Source: an uncultured Mucispirillum sp. (GTDB taxonomy: Bacteria > Chrysiogenota > Deferribacteres > Deferribacterales > Mucispirillaceae). From it: 64,000 bases of DNA. Below are positions 33,962-44,205 of this stretch, in pieces. The notes under the pieces were generated by a model that searched no databases, was not told where the DNA came from, and saw nothing but the letters and a program-made list of their open reading frames with translations. Location of the stretch: positions 1 to 64,000 of the forward strand of contig CALVEY010000012.1 of NCBI GenBank assembly GCA_944326705.1, read 5' to 3'. The position numbers and the translations under genes are program-made. How positions within the stretch are numbered: position 1 is the first letter of the stretch; the number at the start of each line of letters is the position of its first letter.

Positions 33962-34441
33962 ATGCAACTTAATGACCTTAGACCAGGACGTGGTGCTAAC
34001 AAAGAAAGAAAACGCAGAGGTAGAGGTACAGGCAGCGGCCAGGGTACTACTGGCGGACGCGGTAACAAAGGCCAAAACGCTAGAAAAAGTGGACAAGTTC
34101 GTCCAGGATTTGAAGGCGGTCAAATGCCATTACTTCGCCGTATTCCAAAAAGAGGCTTCAACAATGCTCAATTTGCTACAGTTTATGAAATAGTTAACTT
34201 AGCAGAAATTGAAGAAAGGTTTGAAGCAGGTGAAGTAGTTAATGCTGAAAACTTAAAAGCAAGAAGATTAGTTCACTGCAATGAAGACGGCATCAAAATA
34301 TTAGGCGATGGCGAATTAACTAAAAAATTAACTTTTGAAGTTGATAAAGTTTCAAAATCTGCAGAAGAAAAAATCAAAAAAGCGGGCGGCGAAATCAAAT
34401 TAATCGAAAAAGTAAAATACGTTGCTAAAAAAGACAAATAA
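33962..34441 (+). CDS. rplO: 50S ribosomal protein L15
   Basis: 159 residues. MQLNDLRPGRGANKERKRRG, the glycine-rich GQGTTGGRGNKGQNARKSG and GGQMPLLRRIPKRGF are L15 signatures. It begins 173 nt after rpsE, behind a terminator and AGGAG, and is followed by a second terminator rather than by secY as in most bacteria, so it is probably transcribed on its own. Confidence 0.97.
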   Translation: MQLNDLRPGRGANKERKRRGRGTGSGQGTTGGRGNKGQNARKSGQVRPGFEGGQMPLLRRIPKRGFNNAQFATVYEIVNLAEIEERFEAGEVVNAENLKARRLVHCNEDGIKILGDGELTKKLTFEVDKVSKSAEEKIKKAGGEIKLIEKVKYVAKKDK

Positions 34442-34447
34442 GTCTAT

Positions 34448-34478
34448 AAGCCCATCTTTTAAAGATGGGCTTTCTTTT
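34448..34478 (+). terminator. Terminator after rplO
   Basis: AAGCCCATCTTT and AAAGATGGGCTT form a 12-bp inverted repeat at 34448-34472 followed by TCTTTTT. It closes the first part of the ribosomal cluster before the respiratory insertion. Confidence 0.85.
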
Positions 34479-34617
34479 TAATATCAATCCATTACATTAA
34501 ATTACTTTTAATAATAACCCTACTTTTTCGCTATATTTAATAAAATATATTGCTTAAATTCAAAAATTGACTTAGTATATATTATCTCACTAGAGAAATA
34601 AATTTAGGAGTTACAGA

Positions 34618-34689
34618 ATGGGAAAAGAAAAACATTCTAAACATGCAGAAATGGGGGGGGGGTGGCCCTTTCAAGAAGAAATTTTATAA
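34618..34689 (+). CDS. Out-of-phase 5' reading frame of the molybdoenzyme gene
   Basis: The ATG at 34618 has an ideal ribosome site (TAGGAG, eight bases upstream) and reads 23 codons (MGKEKHSKHAEMGGGW...) through a run of ten G before stopping at 34687. In this phase it cannot enter the enzyme frame. With eight or eleven G residues the same ATG would continue as MGKEKHSKHAEMGG(G)VALSRRNFIKAS, a natural Tat signal peptide. I regard this as the true 5' end of the gene below, caught in the off phase or affected by a sequencing slip. Confidence 0.75.
   Translation: MGKEKHSKHAEMGGGWPFQEEIL
34653..34662 (+). repeat. Homopolymeric G10 tract in the start region of the molybdoenzyme gene
   Basis: Ten consecutive G residues in a genome where such runs should be extremely rare. 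It lies 35 bases inside the reading frame that has the good ribosome site. One added or two lost G residues restore the frame with the 954-codon enzyme. This is the pattern of slipped-strand phase variation. Confidence 0.85.
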
Positions 34690-37526
34690 AAGCATCAGCT
34701 GCTTTTAGTGCTGCAGCTGCGCTTGGCGGATGTACTAAAGGTGGAGATGATGTATTTGACCCAGCAGGCTCTGCTGGCAACCAGCCTGATTTAAGACCAA
34801 CTAGAAAAGTCTATTCTACATGTCCTGTTGAGTGTTTAACTCACAGTCTTAATTGTCAGCTTGTAGGTAACGAAGTTATACGAGTTGAACCAACAAAAAA
34901 ATCTGGAGATATATATTTCACAACTGCTTGTGCCAGAGGAATGAGCAGAATGCAGTTTTTAACAGAAAACAGAGCTGCAACTCCAATGAAAAGAATAAAA
35001 AAAGGCTCAGAATATTCAGAACTTGGTGTTCAACTTAAAGATAATTCTGTTGATGAATGGGTTTCTATAAGCTGGGAACAGGCATTATCTGAAATAGCTG
35101 CTCCATTAAGAGAATACTACCAAAGGAAAAAACAAAATATTAATGATGCAGAAAAAGGTATTATGGTGTGGACTGGTTCTGGAAATATGGGACCAATTGT
35201 TAATACCTTAATAGGTAACTTCTTTGACCACATAAGCCCTAATAGAGCAACAAAATTAGGCAACTCATGCTGTGCAGGTGTTGATGCTGGTATGGTACCT
35301 GTATATGGCAAACGCAGTATTGATACAAGAGATACAATAAGAGATTCTAAATGTATTATTAACTGGGGTAATAACCCTGCAGATACTACAAATACATACT
35401 GGAAATTTGTAATAGATGCAAAATTAAATAATAATGCAAAAATAATTACAATTGACCCAAGATACAGCACAAGTGCTGAAAAATCAGATATCTGGGTTCA
35501 ATTAAAACCTGGAACAGATACACTATTTGGTATAGGTATGCTCCGCTGGATATTTAGCCAGGATACAACTGGTACAGAAAACAGTGGTACATATATTGAC
35601 ACTGATTTATTAAAATATAGGACAAATGCTCCATTTTTAGTAGATATTTCTGCAATAATGAATGGTGAAACAGGTCAGTTAATTGATAAAGCATATAATC
35701 ATATACATAAAGTAAGCTTAAAAAGAGATGCAGAAAATAATTACTTAGTATGGAATGGTACAGCAGAAGAAATTGCTCAGGAAAATAAAGGTAGAAATAA
35801 TGCTAATCCAAATCCAAATCAAAATGCTGACTTATACTATACTGATTTAAGTAAAAAAGTAACAACAGTTTATCAGCTTTTAAGAGCATTATATGCAGGC
35901 GATTTATTAACTGGCGCACAAAACCCAGTAGATGCAGAGCTTGCAAAACTTCATGACCCTGTATATACAGAAACAAAAATTGCTGAAATTACAGGAATAC
36001 AAAAACAAACATTAATTGAAGAAACAGCAAAAGCATACGCATCAACTAATGGAGCATCTATGATTATTGAAAATATGGGTGGTGCTCAAAGAACAGAAAG
36101 TGCAGGTCATGAATGTGCTATGCATTGTATACTTTCTTTGATTACTGGTAATGTTGGTAATGCAGGAAGTGGTGTTGATGATACATCTGGCTGGTCATCT
36201 TCAGCTGCAGGGCTGCAGGCAAATCTTGATGATGTTGCTAATTTATCACTTGGAACATCAATGACATTATTAAAAAAAGCAGAAGGAAAAACAAATCCAC
36301 ATAACATACCTTTTGGAACTCTTGGAAGAAGAGCTCTTGCAGCAGCTAAAAATGAACCTTATGATACATATCTGAAAAAAGAAGGTATGGCAGATAAAGA
36401 CCCGCATATAAAATTCTGGTATTTAGCAACAAGCAGTTTATTAACTCAATTTCCAAATACTGATGCTATAAAAGAAGCATTAAGGCGTTCAGAATGTGTT
36501 GTTACTGCTAAACCAACATGGAATACAGATGCAGATTATTCAGATTATTTTCTGCCTGTAACAACTCCATTTGAATATGAAGATATAGGTGCAGCAAACA
36601 GAAATAAATATATTCAAGTAATGGAGCCAGGTGTTGTTCCTTACGGACAGTCATTATCAGACCAGCAGATATTAAGAATGCTTGCTAAATTAGTATTTGA
36701 TGACCCAGAAATTATTGCAGGTTTTGACCATGATGATGCAGATTATCCAAAAGATATTGTAGAAAATCCAGCTAACAATATTATGAAAAATGGTCTTGCA
36801 AGTTATGACCAGCTTAAAGAAGTAAAAGTGTTCAGACCAGCATGTTATGGTGAAAAATTTGTGCCACTTAGAAACTTAGAATTTTACAATGATTTAAAAA
36901 GAGCTAATATATATGTATATCAATGGCAGGATACTGCATCATATCCATATATAGATTTATCTCCAAACCCAGCAAGAGATTTATATAAAGGTCCATTCCC
37001 ACGCTATGTGCCAGCACTGCAGAGTCAGCAGGAATTTTTACCGGATTTTCAATATTTAGACCCTGATAATGAAGTAAACAGTGCATTTTATCAAACAGTG
37101 CCTGCTGATATGAAAAAAATTAAACTTAAAGATGGCAGAGAAATCAATTATCAGCAAAACAGAGAAATGTATCCTTTATGCAATGTGCAGTATAAAGTTG
37201 CTAGAACTGTCCATTCATCATTTACAGGACTTCCTTGGATTAGAGAAGCATTTGGTGATAAAGGTGTTGTATTAATGAACACTGCAGATGCTGCAGCAAG
37301 GGGTATTTCTGATGGTGATGCTGTATATGTAACAAGTAATATTGGTACAGTTGAGCGTATAGCAAAAGTAAGTGACCAGATGATGTATGGCGTAACAGCT
37401 GTAGAAAACGGATGGTGGGATGATTATGGTAAAATTTCTTCTTCAACTATTGGTGTTGAACTTCCCGGCCCTATGAGCAATGCCCATACTCATAATAATA
37501 CTCTTGTGCAAATTGTGAAAAAATAG
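34662..37526 (+). CDS. DMSO-reductase-family molybdopterin oxidoreductase, catalytic subunit
   Basis: 954 residues from the in-frame GTG at 34662, the last base of a G10 tract; the likely real start is the ATG at 34618 when the tract has a compatible length. Tat motif SRRNFIKA, then AAAALGGC, a possible lipobox with cysteine 24. A 4Fe-4S region follows (C54, C58, C65, C90) and the molybdopterin core: EWVSISWEQALSEIA, GNSCCAGVDAG near 200-210 in the Mo-ligand region, NNPADTTNTYWK, IDPRYSTSAEKSDIWVQLKPGTD, and a C-terminal dinucleotide domain (GVVLMNTADAAARGISDGDAVYV). It resembles DmsA-type reductases. Substrate (S-oxide, N-oxide, thiosulfate or other) cannot be decided. Next come an iron-sulfur subunit, a chaperone, a barrel and a cytochrome. 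Confidence 0.88.
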   Translation: MALSRRNFIKASAAFSAAAALGGCTKGGDDVFDPAGSAGNQPDLRPTRKVYSTCPVECLTHSLNCQLVGNEVIRVEPTKKSGDIYFTTACARGMSRMQFLTENRAATPMKRIKKGSEYSELGVQLKDNSVDEWVSISWEQALSEIAAPLREYYQRKKQNINDAEKGIMVWTGSGNMGPIVNTLIGNFFDHISPNRATKLGNSCCAGVDAGMVPVYGKRSIDTRDTIRDSKCIINWGNNPADTTNTYWKFVIDAKLNNNAKIITIDPRYSTSAEKSDIWVQLKPGTDTLFGIGMLRWIFSQDTTGTENSGTYIDTDLLKYRTNAPFLVDISAIMNGETGQLIDKAYNHIHKVSLKRDAENNYLVWNGTAEEIAQENKGRNNANPNPNQNADLYYTDLSKKVTTVYQLLRALYAGDLLTGAQNPVDAELAKLHDPVYTETKIAEITGIQKQTLIEETAKAYASTNGASMIIENMGGAQRTESAGHECAMHCILSLITGNVGNAGSGVDDTSGWSSSAAGLQANLDDVANLSLGTSMTLLKKAEGKTNPHNIPFGTLGRRALAAAKNEPYDTYLKKEGMADKDPHIKFWYLATSSLLTQFPNTDAIKEALRRSECVVTAKPTWNTDADYSDYFLPVTTPFEYEDIGAANRNKYIQVMEPGVVPYGQSLSDQQILRMLAKLVFDDPEIIAGFDHDDADYPKDIVENPANNIMKNGLASYDQLKEVKVFRPACYGEKFVPLRNLEFYNDLKRANIYVYQWQDTASYPYIDLSPNPARDLYKGPFPRYVPALQSQQEFLPDFQYLDPDNEVNSAFYQTVPADMKKIKLKDGREINYQQNREMYPLCNVQYKVARTVHSSFTGLPWIREAFGDKGVVLMNTADAAARGISDGDAVYVTSNIGTVERIAKVSDQMMYGVTAVENGWWDDYGKISSSTIGVELPGPMSNAHTHNNTLVQIVKK

Positions 37527-37535
37527 GGGGATAAT

Positions 37536-38102
37536 ATGTCTAAAAGATTAGCATTTTTAATAGATACAAGATATTGCAATAACTGCAAAACATGTGAAAT
37601 AGCATGTAAAATGGAAAGAAAACTGCCTATCGGTCAGCAGTGGAGAAAAGTGCGTGAAGTAAGAACTGCAAATCAGGCAGCAGATTCATCTAATCCATTA
37701 TCTACATTTTATGTAGCAATGAGCTGTAACCACTGTGAAGAACCAGCATGTGCTCAAGTATGCCCACAAAATACATACAGGAAAACACCAGAAGGTCCAG
37801 TTATTCAGTATCAGGAATATTGTATAGGCTGCACAAAATGTGTCAGCGCATGTCCATATTCTGCTCCAGTATATAACACTGCTACTCAAATTACAGGAAA
37901 ATGTGATATGTGTTACAGCAGACTTCAAGAAGGTCTGCAGCCATATTGTGTGCAATGCTGCCCAAATAATGCTCTTAAAATTGGTGATTATGAAGAGCTT
38001 GTTGCTGCTTATGGTGAAAGCCAGGATTTAGGTTTTGAAACAACAATCATACCTAACGGCAGTGAAACAAACCCTTCAATAGTTATTGTTAAAATAAAGT
38101 AA
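37536..38102 (+). CDS. Four-cluster ferredoxin subunit, DmsB-like
   Basis: 188 residues with 16 cysteines in four 4Fe-4S motifs: CNNCKTCEIACKM, CNHCEEPACAQVCP, CIGCTKCVSACPY, and CDMCYSRL...CVQCCP. This is the DmsB/PsrB/NrfC type electron-transfer subunit that partners a molybdopterin catalytic subunit. It has no signal peptide of its own, so it would be exported with the Tat-bearing catalytic subunit. Ten bases after the catalytic gene. A membrane anchor subunit (DmsC/NrfD type) is not encoded next to it. Confidence 0.95.
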   Translation: MSKRLAFLIDTRYCNNCKTCEIACKMERKLPIGQQWRKVREVRTANQAADSSNPLSTFYVAMSCNHCEEPACAQVCPQNTYRKTPEGPVIQYQEYCIGCTKCVSACPYSAPVYNTATQITGKCDMCYSRLQEGLQPYCVQCCPNNALKIGDYEELVAAYGESQDLGFETTIIPNGSETNPSIVIVKIK

Positions 38103-38113
38103 CAGACTAATGG

Positions 38114-38138
38114 CATATCTGCTTTTTGTGCAGATATG
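38114..38138 (+). other. Intercistronic hairpin before the chaperone gene
   Basis: CATATCTGC (38114-38122) and GCAGATATG (38130-38138) form a perfect 9-bp stem with a 7-nt loop. No T run follows, so it is not a classic terminator. It may lower or stabilise expression of the downstream genes relative to the two enzyme subunits. Confidence 0.5.
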
Positions 38139-38150
38139 TCTGGAGCATTT

Positions 38151-38804
38151 ATGAATAAAAAAGAAATAGAAAGCAGCATAATTAGTGGAAGAAGAATTAT
38201 TCTGGAATATTTATGGCATTCATATTATTTTGTTCCAGATAATGATTACATACAATATACAAACAAAATACTGCCTGTAATACAGGAAATATGCACAGGT
38301 ATAGATGGTTTTCCTGAAAAAGCCGAAATAATCAACTGTTTTCAAGAATTTGGCAGTTTAAGAAGCAGTTTAGATATACTTGAAAAAGCAAACATCTCTT
38401 TTACAAAGTTTTTTGTAAGTGGAGAAAAGGTAAAAGACAGGGAATTTTTGTGGCGGAATAAGGAAATATCAAAAGAAGATATAATTGTGTCACTGCAGTC
38501 TGTATATGATAAATACAGTATCGCAAAACCTGTAAAAATTAACCTGCCCATAGATAATATAAGTATGGAACTTTTTCTTTTATACAAGCTTGCAGCCAGT
38601 GAGCAGAAAAAAGAAATAATTGCTGATGAGCTGTGCTTATATGAAAACCATCTGTTAAAATGGATTGCGCTATATTTTAAGGCTCAAGAAGAAAAGTGTA
38701 GTTTAAAAAATGCAGATACGCTGTATAAAGGGCTTTTTATGTTTTCCAGAATATATTTGCTGCATGACTATTTCTTTTTAAAAGAAATATATGGTGAAAT
38801 ATGA
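38151..38804 (+). CDS. TorD/DmsD-like molybdoenzyme chaperone
   Basis: 217 residues from the ATG at 38151 (GGAG five bases upstream; an ATG five codons earlier has none). An all-helical cytoplasmic protein with the TorD-family pattern of a mid segment (FTKFFVSGEKVKDREFLWRN) and a C-terminal DELCLYENHLLKWIALYFKAQEE resembling the ExxHL...W...F signature. Such proteins hold the Tat signal of the catalytic subunit until cofactor is inserted. Gene position after the A and B subunits supports this. Confidence 0.82.
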   Translation: MNKKEIESSIISGRRIILEYLWHSYYFVPDNDYIQYTNKILPVIQEICTGIDGFPEKAEIINCFQEFGSLRSSLDILEKANISFTKFFVSGEKVKDREFLWRNKEISKEDIIVSLQSVYDKYSIAKPVKINLPIDNISMELFLLYKLAASEQKKEIIADELCLYENHLLKWIALYFKAQEEKCSLKNADTLYKGLFMFSRIYLLHDYFFLKEIYGEI

Positions 38805-40327
38805 AATGGATAAGCAAATATAAAAGGCTGAGTATTTTATCTGCTTTATTTGTGCTGATATCTTATTCCATTCCTGTATATGCTTATGTTGGTGATGCTT
38901 ATGTTACCCCTGACAGCTGGAGCAGGCATTTAAGTGCTTACGGTGTGAAATCATCTATTAATGGTTTAGATTTTGGGGACAGCGGCACATTAAAAATAGG
39001 GCTTACAACAAGAGCACAGCTTAGGTATGCAGATGAAGATGACTGGAGTATTTATCAGTATGCTAAACTTCGTTTAGGTGGCAGTAAAGTTGGTGATGGC
39101 GTAATTAATATGAATATAAATGTACGCGGAGCCTATGATGATATGCCTGTAATAGGTGATAATAAATATCACCAGTTTTATGATGGCTTATATACTGCAC
39201 GGAAATATAATGAGTTTACAAGAAGCAGCGAAAATATGGACGGCGACTTTAGGATATATCAGGCAAATATTGAACTTAATAAAGTAATTCCTTTAACTGA
39301 TGTATCTCTTGGCAGAATATATCTTACAGCTTTTAATGGATATAAAATAGATGGTGTAAATATTAAGATAGACCCAGTAAAATATTTAAACTTAAATTTA
39401 TACTATGGTTTGCCAGTCAGCTATTACAGCAATCTTAAAACTCAGGTTGCTGGTGTATCTTTTGAAATACCAGTAGAGCAAAGCGGCACAAAAATCAGAG
39501 GTGAATACAGCTATTTTATGCATGAAGATGGTGGTGATTTAAATACCCATGTTCTTCACGGCAGAATTGACCAAAGCTTAAATTTTACAGATATTTTAAA
39601 TGCATCAATATATGCAGAAGGTGCCGTAATTGGTAAAGCAATGGTATATGATATAGGGCTTGAAGCAAATATTGATAAAAGTAAAACAGGTATATCTGCA
39701 TATGTTATGGGGCAGTATGATAAAAATGATGGTGCCATAAATCCGTATGTATCTATGTATGAAAGCCTTCTCAGCGGCGAAAGAGAATATGTTATGGGTG
39801 GTGTAATGATTACTCAAGGTATAACAGACTATCTTATGCTGGGGGTAGGATACGAAGGCAGATTTAATTTTAATGAAGCCTATGGCGACAGAGACTATCA
39901 CAGAGTCTTTGGCAATATTGATTTGGTTGGATTAATACACAGAAATAACTATCTCAGCTTAATTGTAGATTATTATAAAGTTGCTCAATATCAGCGTCTT
40001 GATGAAAATGCACAAATAATGGGCGGCTTTAGAATGACACAAGTATTTACAGATAAAATTGAAGCGTGGATTGGAGTTAATGTGCAGAACTATCAGTATC
40101 ATAGAAGCCCTGTGAAACTTTATCAGTGGGAAACATTAGGTCAAATTACTAACCAAAACCTGTTAAATGAGAATACAACAGTTGCATATATTGGTGGTAT
40201 GTGGCAGGTGACAGACTGGTGTGTGCTGCAGCTTGATTATACTTTTGAGTATGCAGATTTATCTAAAGCTCAGGATATGCAGCCAGAATCTCACACTGTA
40301 GAGATGTGGGTAAATTTTTTATGGTAG
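38801..40327 (+). CDS. Outer-membrane beta-barrel next to the molybdoenzyme genes
   Basis: 508 residues: signal peptide cut after VYA (about residue 28), then many amphipathic strands and a C-terminal aromatic residue (EMWVNFLW), the usual end of an outer-membrane barrel. Its start overlaps the chaperone stop by 4 nt, and the cytochrome gene follows after 6 nt, so the three are one unit. In porin-cytochrome systems (MtrB/DmsF in Shewanella) a barrel sheathes a multihaem cytochrome to carry electrons across the outer membrane. This protein could do the same, but it is shorter than MtrB and I see no CxxC at its N-terminus. A simple porin is the alternative. Confidence 0.75.
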   Translation: MKWISKYKRLSILSALFVLISYSIPVYAYVGDAYVTPDSWSRHLSAYGVKSSINGLDFGDSGTLKIGLTTRAQLRYADEDDWSIYQYAKLRLGGSKVGDGVINMNINVRGAYDDMPVIGDNKYHQFYDGLYTARKYNEFTRSSENMDGDFRIYQANIELNKVIPLTDVSLGRIYLTAFNGYKIDGVNIKIDPVKYLNLNLYYGLPVSYYSNLKTQVAGVSFEIPVEQSGTKIRGEYSYFMHEDGGDLNTHVLHGRIDQSLNFTDILNASIYAEGAVIGKAMVYDIGLEANIDKSKTGISAYVMGQYDKNDGAINPYVSMYESLLSGEREYVMGGVMITQGITDYLMLGVGYEGRFNFNEAYGDRDYHRVFGNIDLVGLIHRNNYLSLIVDYYKVAQYQRLDENAQIMGGFRMTQVFTDKIEAWIGVNVQNYQYHRSPVKLYQWETLGQITNQNLLNENTTVAYIGGMWQVTDWCVLQLDYTFEYADLSKAQDMQPESHTVEMWVNFLW

Positions 40328-40333
40328 GAAGTT

Positions 40334-40822
40334 ATGAAACATATATTAATTATAATGATTATGGTATCTACAGCTGTTGTTGCAGCTTATGCTGTTGACA
40401 GCACAAAGCCATCAACTCACAATAATTACTGGCTGTATAAACACGGCCAGGCAGCAAAGGCTAATGAAGCAGAATGTTTAATGTGCCATGAAGAAAGAGT
40501 TGAATGTATTGAATGTCATGAAGACATGCCTCCAAGAAGCCATACATCAACTTTTGTAAACAGAACTCATGGTTTAGAAAGCAGGTGGAAAAAAACATCT
40601 TGCCAGACATGCCATAGAGAAGACTTTTGCACCGCTTGTCATGAAACAGCTTTTCCCAAAAGTCATATGAAACAGAATTTTAAAGGCGGGACAAATACCC
40701 ACTGCGGATTAAGCTGCCAGCTTCCTGTTGGAACATGGACAAATACTGTATCTAAAAACTGTATTGTCTGCCACCAGACAAGGCCGCAGCTCCAAAGTGG
40801 TGGTTTACATTCTATAAGGTAG
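40334..40822 (+). CDS. Periplasmic pentahaem c-type cytochrome
   Basis: 162 residues: signal peptide cut after AYA (residue 20), then five CxxCH haem sites (CLMCH 48, CIECH 58, CQTCH 90, CTACH 99, CIVCH 143). A further C-x3-C pair (C124, C128) in HCGLSC is not a standard haem site. Spaced histidines can act as sixth ligands. The paired sites resemble class III/c7-like or Desulfo-type cytochromes. It is the last gene of the molybdoenzyme operon and so probably delivers electrons to the enzyme from an inner-membrane quinol oxidase encoded elsewhere. Confidence 0.93.
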   Translation: MKHILIIMIMVSTAVVAAYAVDSTKPSTHNNYWLYKHGQAAKANEAECLMCHEERVECIECHEDMPPRSHTSTFVNRTHGLESRWKKTSCQTCHREDFCTACHETAFPKSHMKQNFKGGTNTHCGLSCQLPVGTWTNTVSKNCIVCHQTRPQLQSGGLHSIR

Positions 40823-40848
40823 ATTAAACTGCTTAAAAGCAACATAAA

Positions 40849-40877
40849 GGGCTGGTTTTAAACCAGCTCTTTTTTTA
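40849..40877 (+). terminator. Terminator after the cytochrome gene
   Basis: GCTGGTT pairs with AACCAGC around TTA at 40851-40867, followed by TCT and seven T residues. It ends the molybdoenzyme operon. Confidence 0.85.
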
Positions 40878-41013
40878 TGCTGATATAAATTATTAATATT
40901 CTTACAATTCTTTTTTAAATTATAAAAAATAAAATTTTTTACCTTAAATAACTATAGTAAAACCGTAGAATGTTTAATTGGAGAAATATCTAATAAATAT
41001 GAGAGGTGGTGCT

Positions 41014-41040
41014 ATGTGTATTCATATGAAATCAAAATAA
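41014..41040 (+). CDS. Possible leader peptide MCIHMKSK
   Basis: Eight codons with start ATG at 41014, preceded by GAGAGGTGG, one of the best ribosome sites in the window; an in-frame ATG at 40999 would give 13 codons. A terminator-like hairpin begins 14 nt after the stop. This arrangement resembles a transcription-attenuation leader, but the only possible downstream gene starts 380 nt later and has its own promoter, so it may instead be a free-standing micro-gene. Low certainty. Confidence 0.4.
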   Translation: MCIHMKSK

Positions 41041-41053
41041 GACATATTAAAAG

Positions 41054-41100
41054 CTCTATACAGTATATCTATCAGTATTATGCTGTATAGAGTTATTTTT
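41054..41100 (+). terminator. Terminator-like hairpin, first copy
   Basis: CTCTATACAG (41054-41063) and CTGTATAGAG (41083-41092) form a perfect 10-bp stem, followed by TTATTTTT. The identical stem sequence recurs at 42751-42787 after the flavocytochrome gene. Confidence 0.75.
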
Positions 41101-41361
41101 TACATATTTAATATTTATTCTATCGTAATAGTTACTTAAAATGTAGAGAAATAATTAAAATCAAATATGATTGAAAATATATATATTATAAATTCAAATT
41201 TACTATTTTTATATCCTGCAATAAAAAATAAGCCACAATTTAATAATATATAAAATATTTTAAAAAAATGTATTTATTCAGTATCAATGGTGATTTAATT
41301 AAATAAATTAATTAATATACAGCAATTGTGTTAAAAAATAAGAAATGTGTAATCTAAATAA

Positions 41362-41391
41362 TTGACAAAGAACTTTAGATATTTTTATAAT
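41362..41391 (+). promoter_or_regulatory. Sigma-70-type promoter for the flavocytochrome gene
   Basis: TTGACA at 41362-41367 and TATAAT at 41386-41391 with an 18-base spacer, both boxes at consensus. The predicted start of transcription falls some 20 bases before the ATG at 41419. Confidence 0.75.
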
Positions 41392-41418
41392 AAGAAAAAA
41401 ATGAGGTAACATGATAAA

Positions 41419-42723
41419 ATGAAATTTAAAGCTTTACTTGTATTATTTATAGTGAGCATATTGTCTTATGTTCTTTCTCCTAGTATGGATTATCTTTTAA
41501 AAACATCAAGTTTTAATTCTTTTAGAATTCAGTTAATGTATATTACAGGTTCAATGGGTATAATTTTTATGTCTGCTGCGGTTATAATTTCAGCAAGACT
41601 TTCATTTGTTAACAAAATATTTGGTGGGCTTGATAAAGCATACGATGTGCATAGAATAACAGCGGCTGTCGGTTTTTTTCTTGGTGTATTCCATTTGCTT
41701 CTTAAACTTTTAAATAATCTTCTTATTGACTTAAATGTGTTAGAAGCACCTGCAAAATCAGTAAACAAATTGCAGGGATTTATTTTAGAATTATATAAAG
41801 CATGCTATGCTTATTTAGAGCCTGCTTTTTATATAATGATTATAGTAGTATTACTGGCAATAATAAAAGCAGTTCCTTATTATTATTTCAGAGTAACTCA
41901 TAAATTAATATCTGTATTATATTTATTTGTAGCATTCCATGCATTTATGGCTCCATTCAGGTCATCATGGCAGTTAACTGTTGGTGGCAGTATAATGCAT
42001 ATATTTATAATAGCAGGGACAGTATGTGCCTTTATTTCTATTTTTAACCTTACAGGTATAATGCATAGATACACTGGAAAAGTAAAAAATAAAAAATATT
42101 TTGGAGATAATATTATTCAGCTTGAAATCCAGCTTCAAGATAAAGATTTTAAATTTAACTGCGGTCAGTTTGTATTTCTAAAATTTTCATATACTATGGA
42201 AGCTCATCCATTTAGTGTGGCAGGCTGGGATAAAAATAATAATGTATTAACTTTTTATATTAAGCAGATTGGTGATTTTACCAGTAAATTATATGACAAA
42301 ATATCAGCAGATGATAAAGTTGTAGTAGAAGGTCCATATGGAGAATTTACTTTCCAGGATACAGGTAAACAGGTATGGATAGCTGGCGGCATAGGTATTA
42401 CTCCATTTTTATCTAAAATAAACAGTTTAAATGGCAATGAAACGAACAATGTGGAGTTAATATACAGCTATATGGGTAAGTCGCCTTTTGAAGATATACT
42501 TGTTCAGCAGTGTGCAGAACAAAATGTTAAACTTCATATAATAGACAGTCAAAAAGAAGGTTTATTAACTTTTGATAAGATTATGGAATTATCACCAGAT
42601 ATTGTATCTTCTACAGTGTGGTTTTGTGGTCCTGTAATGTTTAGAAAAATAGTAGAAGATGGAATGAAGCAAAACAATATATCATTAAATAAACTTCATT
42701 TTGATAATTTTAGTTTTAGATAA
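41419..42723 (+). CDS. Ferric-reductase/NOX-like transmembrane flavocytochrome
   Basis: 434 residues. N-terminal half: about six membrane helices with pairs of histidines (DVHR and GVFHLLL; VTHKL and VAFHAFM) placed to bind two b-haems as in the ferric reductase domain. C-terminal half: an FAD-binding barrel (AHPFSVAGWDK for the HPF[ST] flavin motif) and NAD(P) domain (VWIAGGIGITPFLSKI, WFCGPVMF). Such enzymes pass electrons from NAD(P)H across the inner membrane to iron, oxygen or quinone-like acceptors. It has its own promoter and terminator, so is a single-gene unit inside the insertion between rplO and secY. Confidence 0.9.
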   Translation: MKFKALLVLFIVSILSYVLSPSMDYLLKTSSFNSFRIQLMYITGSMGIIFMSAAVIISARLSFVNKIFGGLDKAYDVHRITAAVGFFLGVFHLLLKLLNNLLIDLNVLEAPAKSVNKLQGFILELYKACYAYLEPAFYIMIIVVLLAIIKAVPYYYFRVTHKLISVLYLFVAFHAFMAPFRSSWQLTVGGSIMHIFIIAGTVCAFISIFNLTGIMHRYTGKVKNKKYFGDNIIQLEIQLQDKDFKFNCGQFVFLKFSYTMEAHPFSVAGWDKNNNVLTFYIKQIGDFTSKLYDKISADDKVVVEGPYGEFTFQDTGKQVWIAGGIGITPFLSKINSLNGNETNNVELIYSYMGKSPFEDILVQQCAEQNVKLHIIDSQKEGLLTFDKIMELSPDIVSSTVWFCGPVMFRKIVEDGMKQNNISLNKLHFDNFSFR

Positions 42724-42750
42724 AATTGTAAAATCAGCATTAATATCAGG

Positions 42751-42796
42751 CTCTATACAGTGTTTTATCAAATAAATCTGTATAGAGCTATTTTTT
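42751..42796 (+). terminator. Terminator after the flavocytochrome gene, second copy of the repeated stem
   Basis: CTCTATACAG (42751-42760) pairs with CTGTATAGAG (42778-42787), followed by CTA and seven T residues. Same stem as the hairpin at 41054, with a different loop. Confidence 0.85.
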
Positions 42797-42888
42797 TCAA
42801 AAAAATTAATATTTTTATTTGCAAAATTTTTTTATATATGGTATCAAATTTCTTTATAGTGTATTTTATTAATTAAAAGGCGGACAAA

Positions 42889-44205
42889 ATGTTTAAGAAA
42901 ATTGAGGAAATATTTTCTATTCCAGAATTAAGAAAGCGTATTTTAATGACGTTAATGCTTTTAGCAGTCTTTCGTATAGGTGCGCATGTACCTACACCTG
43001 GCGTTAATGGCCACGCATTATCTCAATTTTTTCAAAATGCAGGTAATAGTTTACTAGGTTTCTTTGATATGTTTACAGGTGGTGCATTAGAAAAACTTAC
43101 AGTTTTTGCTATGGGCGTTATGCCTTACATCTCTGCATCCATCATTATGGAGCTTTTAGCTGTTGTTATTCCAACTCTTGCTGAGCTTAAAAAAAGAGGC
43201 AGTGAAGGCAGACAAAAAATTACAAAATATACAAGATACTTAACTGTTGTTGTTGCGGTTATTCAAGGGCTTGCAATATCAATAGGTATTGAAAATATGA
43301 GAGCACCAGACGGCTCACCAATCGTTTTTATGGACGGCTGGCAGTTTAGATTTATTGCTACATTAACTCTTACAACAGGTACTATGTTTTTAGTATGGCT
43401 TGGTGAGAAAATCACATCTTATGGTGTTGGTAATGGTATGTCATTAATCATTATGGCAGGTATTATATCAGCATTTCCTGGTGCAGTAGTAAACACTTAC
43501 TCTTTAATGGAAACAGGCACAGTTCAAATCATTCCATTAATTATAGCTGTTGCGATTATGGTTGCTGCTTTTATAGCTATCGTATTTATGGAAACTTCTC
43601 AAAGAAGACTGCCTATTCAGTATGTTCGTAAAGGTAATGCTGGCGGCACTGTAAATGCAGGCAACTCATATTTACCATTAAGATTAAACCCAGCAGGCGT
43701 TATTCCTATAATCTTTGCTTCTACATTAATAACACTTCCTGCTACTCTTGCAACATTTATGCCGCAGGACCCACTGGTACAGAAAATTAACTTTTTCTTC
43801 TCTCCAGAATATCCTGTATATTATGTGTTAGAATTAACTTTAATTATATTCTTTACATATTTTTATACATCAATTATCTTCAATCCAACAGATATTGCGG
43901 ATAATATTAATAAATCAGGTGGTGTGATGCCTGGCAAACGTCCTGGTATTGAAACAGCTAACTACATAGACTATGTACTTACTCGTCTTACATTTGTAGG
44001 TGCAATCTACTTAGCAATAGTTTCTGTTATGCCACAGTTATTTATTAGAGCATTTGGGCTGCCATTTTATTTTGGTGGAACAAGTCTTTTAATTGTAGTG
44101 GGAGTTGGTCTTGATGTTATTCAAAAGATAGAATCTCACTTACTTACTCATAACTATGACGGCTTTCTTAAAAAAGGTCGTATTAGAGGGAGAAACTGGT
44201 CATGA
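42889..44205 (+). CDS. secY: Preprotein translocase subunit SecY
   Basis: 438 residues with ten membrane helices; start region FSIPELRKRILMTLMLLAVFRIGAHVPTPGV, plug-region and GVMPYISASIIMELL, and C-terminal QKIESHLLTHNYDGFLKKG are SecY signatures. It forms the protein-conducting channel with SecE and SecG. Behind AGGCGG; it begins the second part of the ribosomal cluster, 8.4 kb from rplO. Overlaps adk by 4 nt. Confidence 0.98.
   Translation: MFKKIEEIFSIPELRKRILMTLMLLAVFRIGAHVPTPGVNGHALSQFFQNAGNSLLGFFDMFTGGALEKLTVFAMGVMPYISASIIMELLAVVIPTLAELKKRGSEGRQKITKYTRYLTVVVAVIQGLAISIGIENMRAPDGSPIVFMDGWQFRFIATLTLTTGTMFLVWLGEKITSYGVGNGMSLIIMAGIISAFPGAVVNTYSLMETGTVQIIPLIIAVAIMVAAFIAIVFMETSQRRLPIQYVRKGNAGGTVNAGNSYLPLRLNPAGVIPIIFASTLITLPATLATFMPQDPLVQKINFFFSPEYPVYYVLELTLIIFFTYFYTSIIFNPTDIADNINKSGGVMPGKRPGIETANYIDYVLTRLTFVGAIYLAIVSVMPQLFIRAFGLPFYFGGTSLLIVVGVGLDVIQKIESHLLTHNYDGFLKKGRIRGRNWS

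Follow-up and report, generated by a model that had tools for sequence, protein, structure and literature searches.

We conclude, with high though not complete confidence, that a slipped-strand phase switch consisting of a poly-G tract is the best explanation for the structure of the 5' end of a molybdoenzyme gene (hereafter, the target) in an uncultured Mucispirillum sp. The target is located in a 64,000-nt stretch of DNA (the window), which is part of contig C12 of a 2.39-Mb draft genome in 79 contigs (G000). Under this model, translation would begin at the ATG at 34618 and, with ten Gs in the tract, would end after 23 codons (the OFF state). The gain of one G or the loss of two would fuse the leader to the enzyme (the ON state), resulting in a predicted Tat-exported lipoprotein enzyme. 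The model would further imply switching within a population and absence of the enzyme from OFF cells; the enzyme may also be exposed at the surface. G000 would contain about 37 G/C-tract contingency loci, the target among them, and these are expected to act in two modes: (i) frameshifts in 5' coding regions, i.e., in at least seven molybdoenzyme operons, in LPS-modifying enzymes, and in HsdS; and (ii) changes in the distance between the -35 and -10 boxes of the promoters that precede lipoprotein and outer-membrane genes. Phase variation had been proposed in a sequence-only reading of this DNA, and that interpretation is supported by the 37 contingency-like tracts, by single-G frame changes in sibling genes, by a common MGKE leader, and by purifying selection on the enzyme.

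The features of the target switch and its operon are listed in Table 1. Frame reading confirmed that the frame of the ATG enters the G10 tract (34653-34662) and stops at 34687, and that the 954-codon enzyme, together with the Tat motif, occupies another frame, which is open from a GTG inside the tract (34662) to 37526. As had also been claimed, 8 or 11 Gs fuse the leader and the enzyme; with G9 or G10, the two are out of frame. The predicted ON fusion has MGKEKHSKHAEM... joined to ALSRRNF. A ribosome site and ATG had been placed at 34605-34620; a good Shine-Dalgarno-ATG pair is indeed present, with the Shine-Dalgarno sequence corrected to 34606-34610.

Table 1. Features of the target switch and of the target operon (window positions).
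Feature	Position	Strand	Comment
Shine-Dalgarno AGGAG	34606..34610	+	7-nt spacing to ATG 34618-34620
Leader frame, OFF state: MGKEKHSKHAEMGGGWPFQEEIL	34618..34689	+	ATG 34618-34620, stop TAA 34687-34689
G10 tract, proposed slipped-strand switch	34653..34662	+	followed by TGG
Molybdoenzyme catalytic subunit, DMSO-reductase family, PF00384 + PF01568	34662..37526	+	-1 frame relative to leader
Twin-arginine motif SRRNFIK	34671..34691	+	readable in the enzyme frame only
Lipobox-like LGGC, predicted Tat-exported lipoprotein	34722..34733	+	inferred from sequence
DmsB-like four-cluster Fe-S subunit	37536..38102	+	Fer4_11 match
TorD/NarJ-like chaperone	38136..38804	+	PF02613
508-aa exported protein, porin-like by inference	38801..40327	+	strand-rich in low-confidence model
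162-aa c-type cytochrome, 5 CxxCH, last gene of module	40334..40822	+	motif count

The tract had been described as striking, and the counts agree: it is the sole G/C run of at least 6 in the 64-kb window, in which there are 328 runs of length 3, 76 of length 4, and 14 of length 5. Three overlapping G8 matches were observed, compared to a mean of 0.12 in dinucleotide shuffles. The target has three properties of a simple-sequence-repeat contingency locus: a pure tract well beyond chance expectation in the 5' coding region, a reading frame that changes in repeat number would toggle, and a coding frame that selection has kept despite the OFF state.

The closest relative carrying the target gene is G003 (uncultured Mucispirillum sp. 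BRZ_PM bin31; locus L031), in which the enzyme is 97% identical; no other tract-bearing ortholog of the target was found. The tract and the following bases are G10 then T in G000, and G9 then TT in G003. Because the total length is equal, the target is OFF in both species, each of which is represented by one genome carrying the tract. For the target enzyme, the comparison of these two OFF alleles yields dS of 0.16 and dN of 0.016; the ratio of 0.10 indicates that the gene is not a decaying pseudogene. The most economical reading of these sequences is that the target gene is switched ON frequently enough for selection to act on it. It should be noted that the chaperone and porin-like genes of the same operon (38136-40327) have dS of approximately 0.02 between G000 and G003, compared to 0.15-0.23 for rpsE/rplO and 0.16 for the enzyme; this low divergence suggests recent exchange or homogenization.

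The tract is missing in the distant Deferribacterales orthologs L003 (71% identity) and G019 (54%), which carry an ordinary n-region ahead of the RR motif (MSWKELSEKAKKGCSRRTF in L003). These n-regions have approximately 15 residues or more, comparable to the leader. Given its absence from these orthologs, an origin of the tract within the Mucispirillum line is most likely. These orthologs also bear on the possibility that the enzyme starts at the GTG at 34662, in which case the G-run would be a degenerate Shine-Dalgarno sequence, the upstream ATG would be irrelevant, and there would be no switch. Both GTG (in G000) and TTG (in G003) are start codons, and either would produce MALSRRNFIKA with a complete Tat motif. 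Nevertheless, we find this start quite improbable, given that the distant orthologs have n-regions of comparable length before the RR motif and that a near-ideal Shine-Dalgarno-ATG pair is located just upstream. The leader that begins at this ATG starts with MGKE in the target and in six paralogous molybdoenzymes (MGKETNVLKSLEESSVSRRSFLKG...), which supports the ATG at 34618 as the start. The target tract precedes the RR motif, whereas the tracts of the six paralogs follow the lipobox, so that an internal start in the paralogs would drop the signal peptide. In addition, a G-run at 4-nt spacing is likely to be a poor ribosome site.

A slipped-strand switch is expected to show variation in tract length, and comparison with relatives gave a divided answer: total length is the same at the target (G10T versus G9TT), whereas sibling loci vary by single Gs. 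For example, L084 of G000 has G9 and is ON, whereas L106 of G003 has G10 and is OFF, with 45 identical bases on each side; likewise, L068 (G9) is ON and L123 (G10) is OFF. An orthologous molybdoenzyme (...DLTPDYIRYG...) is OFF with G9 in G000, G003, and G006, and ON with G10 in G009. The frame correction that is needed differs among the sibling genes, being -1, +1, or none. Altogether, 10 of the 28 tract-bearing molybdoenzyme genes from seven genomes are in the ON state, about one in three, as would be expected if the frame were random, in a tally that takes in the target pair and omits unclassified cassette loci (e.g., L218, L226-L228, L236, and L239).

Across genomes, there are 37 G/C runs of at least 8 in G000, 35 in G003, and 49 in the single-contig G006, with a modal length of 9; most other Deferribacterales genomes have 1-10 such runs. 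The run lengths in G000 are bimodal: 13 runs of G6, one of G7, two of G8, 32 of G9, and three of G10. This rules out a chance origin of the tracts, and the distribution is the signature of what appears, from the sequences, to be a maintained hypermutable class of tracts with no decay tail. Loss of mismatch repair as the cause of instability was also ruled out, as MutS1 and MutL were found in the Mucispirillum genus; their presence means that switching rates may be below those of Campylobacter, and equality is not to be assumed. In another genus of the same family, G011 has 73 runs of G8 or longer, and its molybdoenzyme leaders with a tract, of which there are at least six, include both ON and OFF frames (L234-L246); a sister genus (G010, G012-G014) has 1-5 runs only.

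The coding tracts of G000 are found in two MBOAT acyltransferases, a heptosyltransferase-type enzyme, RgpF, a sulfatase-type transferase, a radical-SAM/SPASM protein, and a type I restriction specificity subunit (HsdS); the largest coherent tract-bearing coding group is that of the DMSO-reductase-family molybdoenzymes. The LPS acyl- and glycosyltransferases and HsdS are of the kinds typically found at contingency loci. The hsdS gene (L069, C8:53431 in G000) contains a mid-gene tract, which is G9 in G000 and G003 and G8 in G006, and a phase-variable methylome is a possible consequence. Other tracts, C8-C11, separate a TTGACA-like box from a TATAAT-like box upstream of lipoprotein and beta-barrel outer-membrane genes; at C9, the spacer is 15 nt long in most cases. 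Both boxes are matched at 11 or more of 12 positions in eight of the 37 G000 tracts, compared to an expectation of 0.0027 per tract from shuffled flanks. Eight G000 loci (L080, L081, L089, L090, L091, L095, L096, and L098) have C8-C9 or G9 between the -35 and -10 boxes of strong sigma-70-like promoters, and the genes that follow are mostly lipoprotein or outer-membrane genes. We propose that these spacer tracts mediate promoter-type phase variation.

The promoter tracts are important for weighing another explanation, namely, that programmed or leaky slippage of RNA polymerase or the ribosome on a G-run of fixed length yields some full-length enzyme. A -1 shift on G-GGG-GGG would mend the frame, and the same offset in both species, together with purifying selection on the gene, is compatible with such recoding. 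However, RNA structure near the tract is ordinary (z = -0.93), the siblings need different corrections, and orthologs vary in DNA length. Furthermore, recoding is meaningless in promoter spacers and cannot explain the equivalent tracts found there; we therefore regard slippage as very improbable. That the gene is a degenerate pseudogene, or that the tract contains a sequencing or assembly error, is extremely improbable: homopolymers are error-prone and the assembly is a draft in 79 contigs, but the frame of about 950 codons is intact in two species with dN/dS of 0.10, and run lengths peak sharply at 9 in three independent assemblies, one of them single-contig. None of these three alternatives accounts jointly for the tracts in promoters, the bimodal run lengths, and the frame changes among siblings.

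The tract anatomy is not confined to one gene: the target locus, which had been viewed in isolation, is real, and is one of at least seven tract-bearing molybdoenzyme operons in G000. Of the six sibling operons, five could be followed through their last gene and share the same order of five genes; the sixth (L099/L186) is truncated by the end of its contig. Across the sibling operons, DNA identity is about 80-92% in the leader-plus-tract segments (compared over about 150-340 nt; lower in some pairs) and 96-98% in the final gene pair (over about 2.0-2.2 kb; proteins 97-100%), whereas identity among the catalytic, Fe-S, and chaperone subunits is no more than 24-58%. Judging by these identities, the sibling operons are mosaics with a common switch, a variable core, and a common end. 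The mosaic operons L182, L183, L184, and L185 are located on G000 contigs C10, C16, C22, and C33, and their structure points to gene conversion or an exchange of cassettes. The target operon has diverged from its siblings, with 63% (508-aa protein) and 60% (cytochrome) identity to the sibling copies. A tentative extension, to which we assign somewhat less than an even chance, is that Mucispirillum runs a combinatorial set of phase-variable respiratory modules. Interchangeable catalytic cores, in seven or more operons with a separate poly-G switch in each, would be combined with a homogenized leader-plus-switch and with an outer-membrane conduit and a cytochrome that all the operons have in common. 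Individual cells would then display random subsets of the terminal reductases and their surface lipoproteins, and cores might be swapped by recombination via the near-identical ends.

The domains of the target enzyme (PF00384, 1.6e-30; PF01568, 5e-17; profile search), its Tat signal, and its Fe-S partner place it in the DMSO reductase/CISM molybdoenzyme superfamily; the TAT_signal profile scores 21.9 bits, just below the cut-off of 22.7. The enzyme does not reach the curated cut-off of TIGR02166 (DmsA/YnfE; 175.5 versus 777.7 bits), and the DmsB-like profile score of the Fe-S subunit is 155 versus a curated cut-off of 214 bits. The 508-aa protein had no match to Pfam or to MtrB/DmsF profiles in the profile search, and its AlphaFold model (pLDDT 31) is too poor for a fold search. 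The lipobox and the cytochrome suggest a surface-exposed respiratory system, possibly of the porin-cytochrome kind. The target operon and a ferric-reductase-like gene (41419-42723) are located between rplO and a SecY-like gene (33962-44205), within the spc ribosomal-protein operon, which is normally uninterrupted.

In textbook examples, poly-G contingency loci bring about variation in surface sugars, adhesins, and restriction systems, and anaerobic respiration is usually viewed as being under the control of sensing. Mucispirillum is a core mouse-gut commensal genus, with one species in the Altered Schaedler Flora. In M. schaedleri, a DMSO/tetrathionate/TMAO-reductase-like system is upregulated in inflamed mice (PMC5285517); that genome and expression study refers neither to phase variation nor to homopolymer tracts. 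The open-access literature yielded no account of phase variation in Mucispirillum and no report of phase-variable (poly-G-switched) respiratory molybdoenzymes, including DMSO reductases, in agreement with the statement of the sequence-only reading that no such switch was known; the words "reductase" and "respiration" are absent from the review PMC11868660. If the proposed switch is real, contingency loci extend to Deferribacterota and to energy metabolism, bet-hedging on electron acceptors in mucus becomes testable, and a single sequenced Mucispirillum genome does not define the respirations of the population. Automated annotation will label the tract-bearing genes as short or broken.

Among known enzyme systems, the DmsA/YnfE-type DMSO/selenate reductases (TIGR02166) share with the target the combination of a catalytic subunit, an Fe-S subunit, and a chaperone; however, the target and its Fe-S subunit score far under the curated cut-offs. 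The dmsEFABGH cluster of Shewanella encodes an extracellular DMSO system. The target operon resembles it in having an exported strand-rich protein and a multihaem cytochrome near the reductase genes, and differs in that its 508-aa protein has no MtrB/DmsF profile match.

With respect to the switches, porA of Neisseria is an example of a promoter-spacer homopolymer switch. A tract (T)11C(G)6 at porA is listed in PMC1097732. As in porA-type switches, the Mucispirillum homopolymers between -35 and -10 alter the spacer, although here C8-C11 is used ahead of lipoprotein and outer-membrane genes. Campylobacter jejuni NCTC11168 has 29 poly-G/poly-C contingency tracts (PMC4965091). The two systems share pure G/C tracts of around 8-11 in an AT-rich genome, location in coding regions, and frame toggling by single units; the C. 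jejuni tracts are predominantly in surface-modifying genes, and such genes are also among those with tracts in Mucispirillum. In contrast to C. jejuni, Mucispirillum belongs to a different phylum, has MutS1 and MutL, commonly carries tracts in promoter spacers, and has respiratory molybdoenzymes as the largest coherent group of tract-bearing genes.
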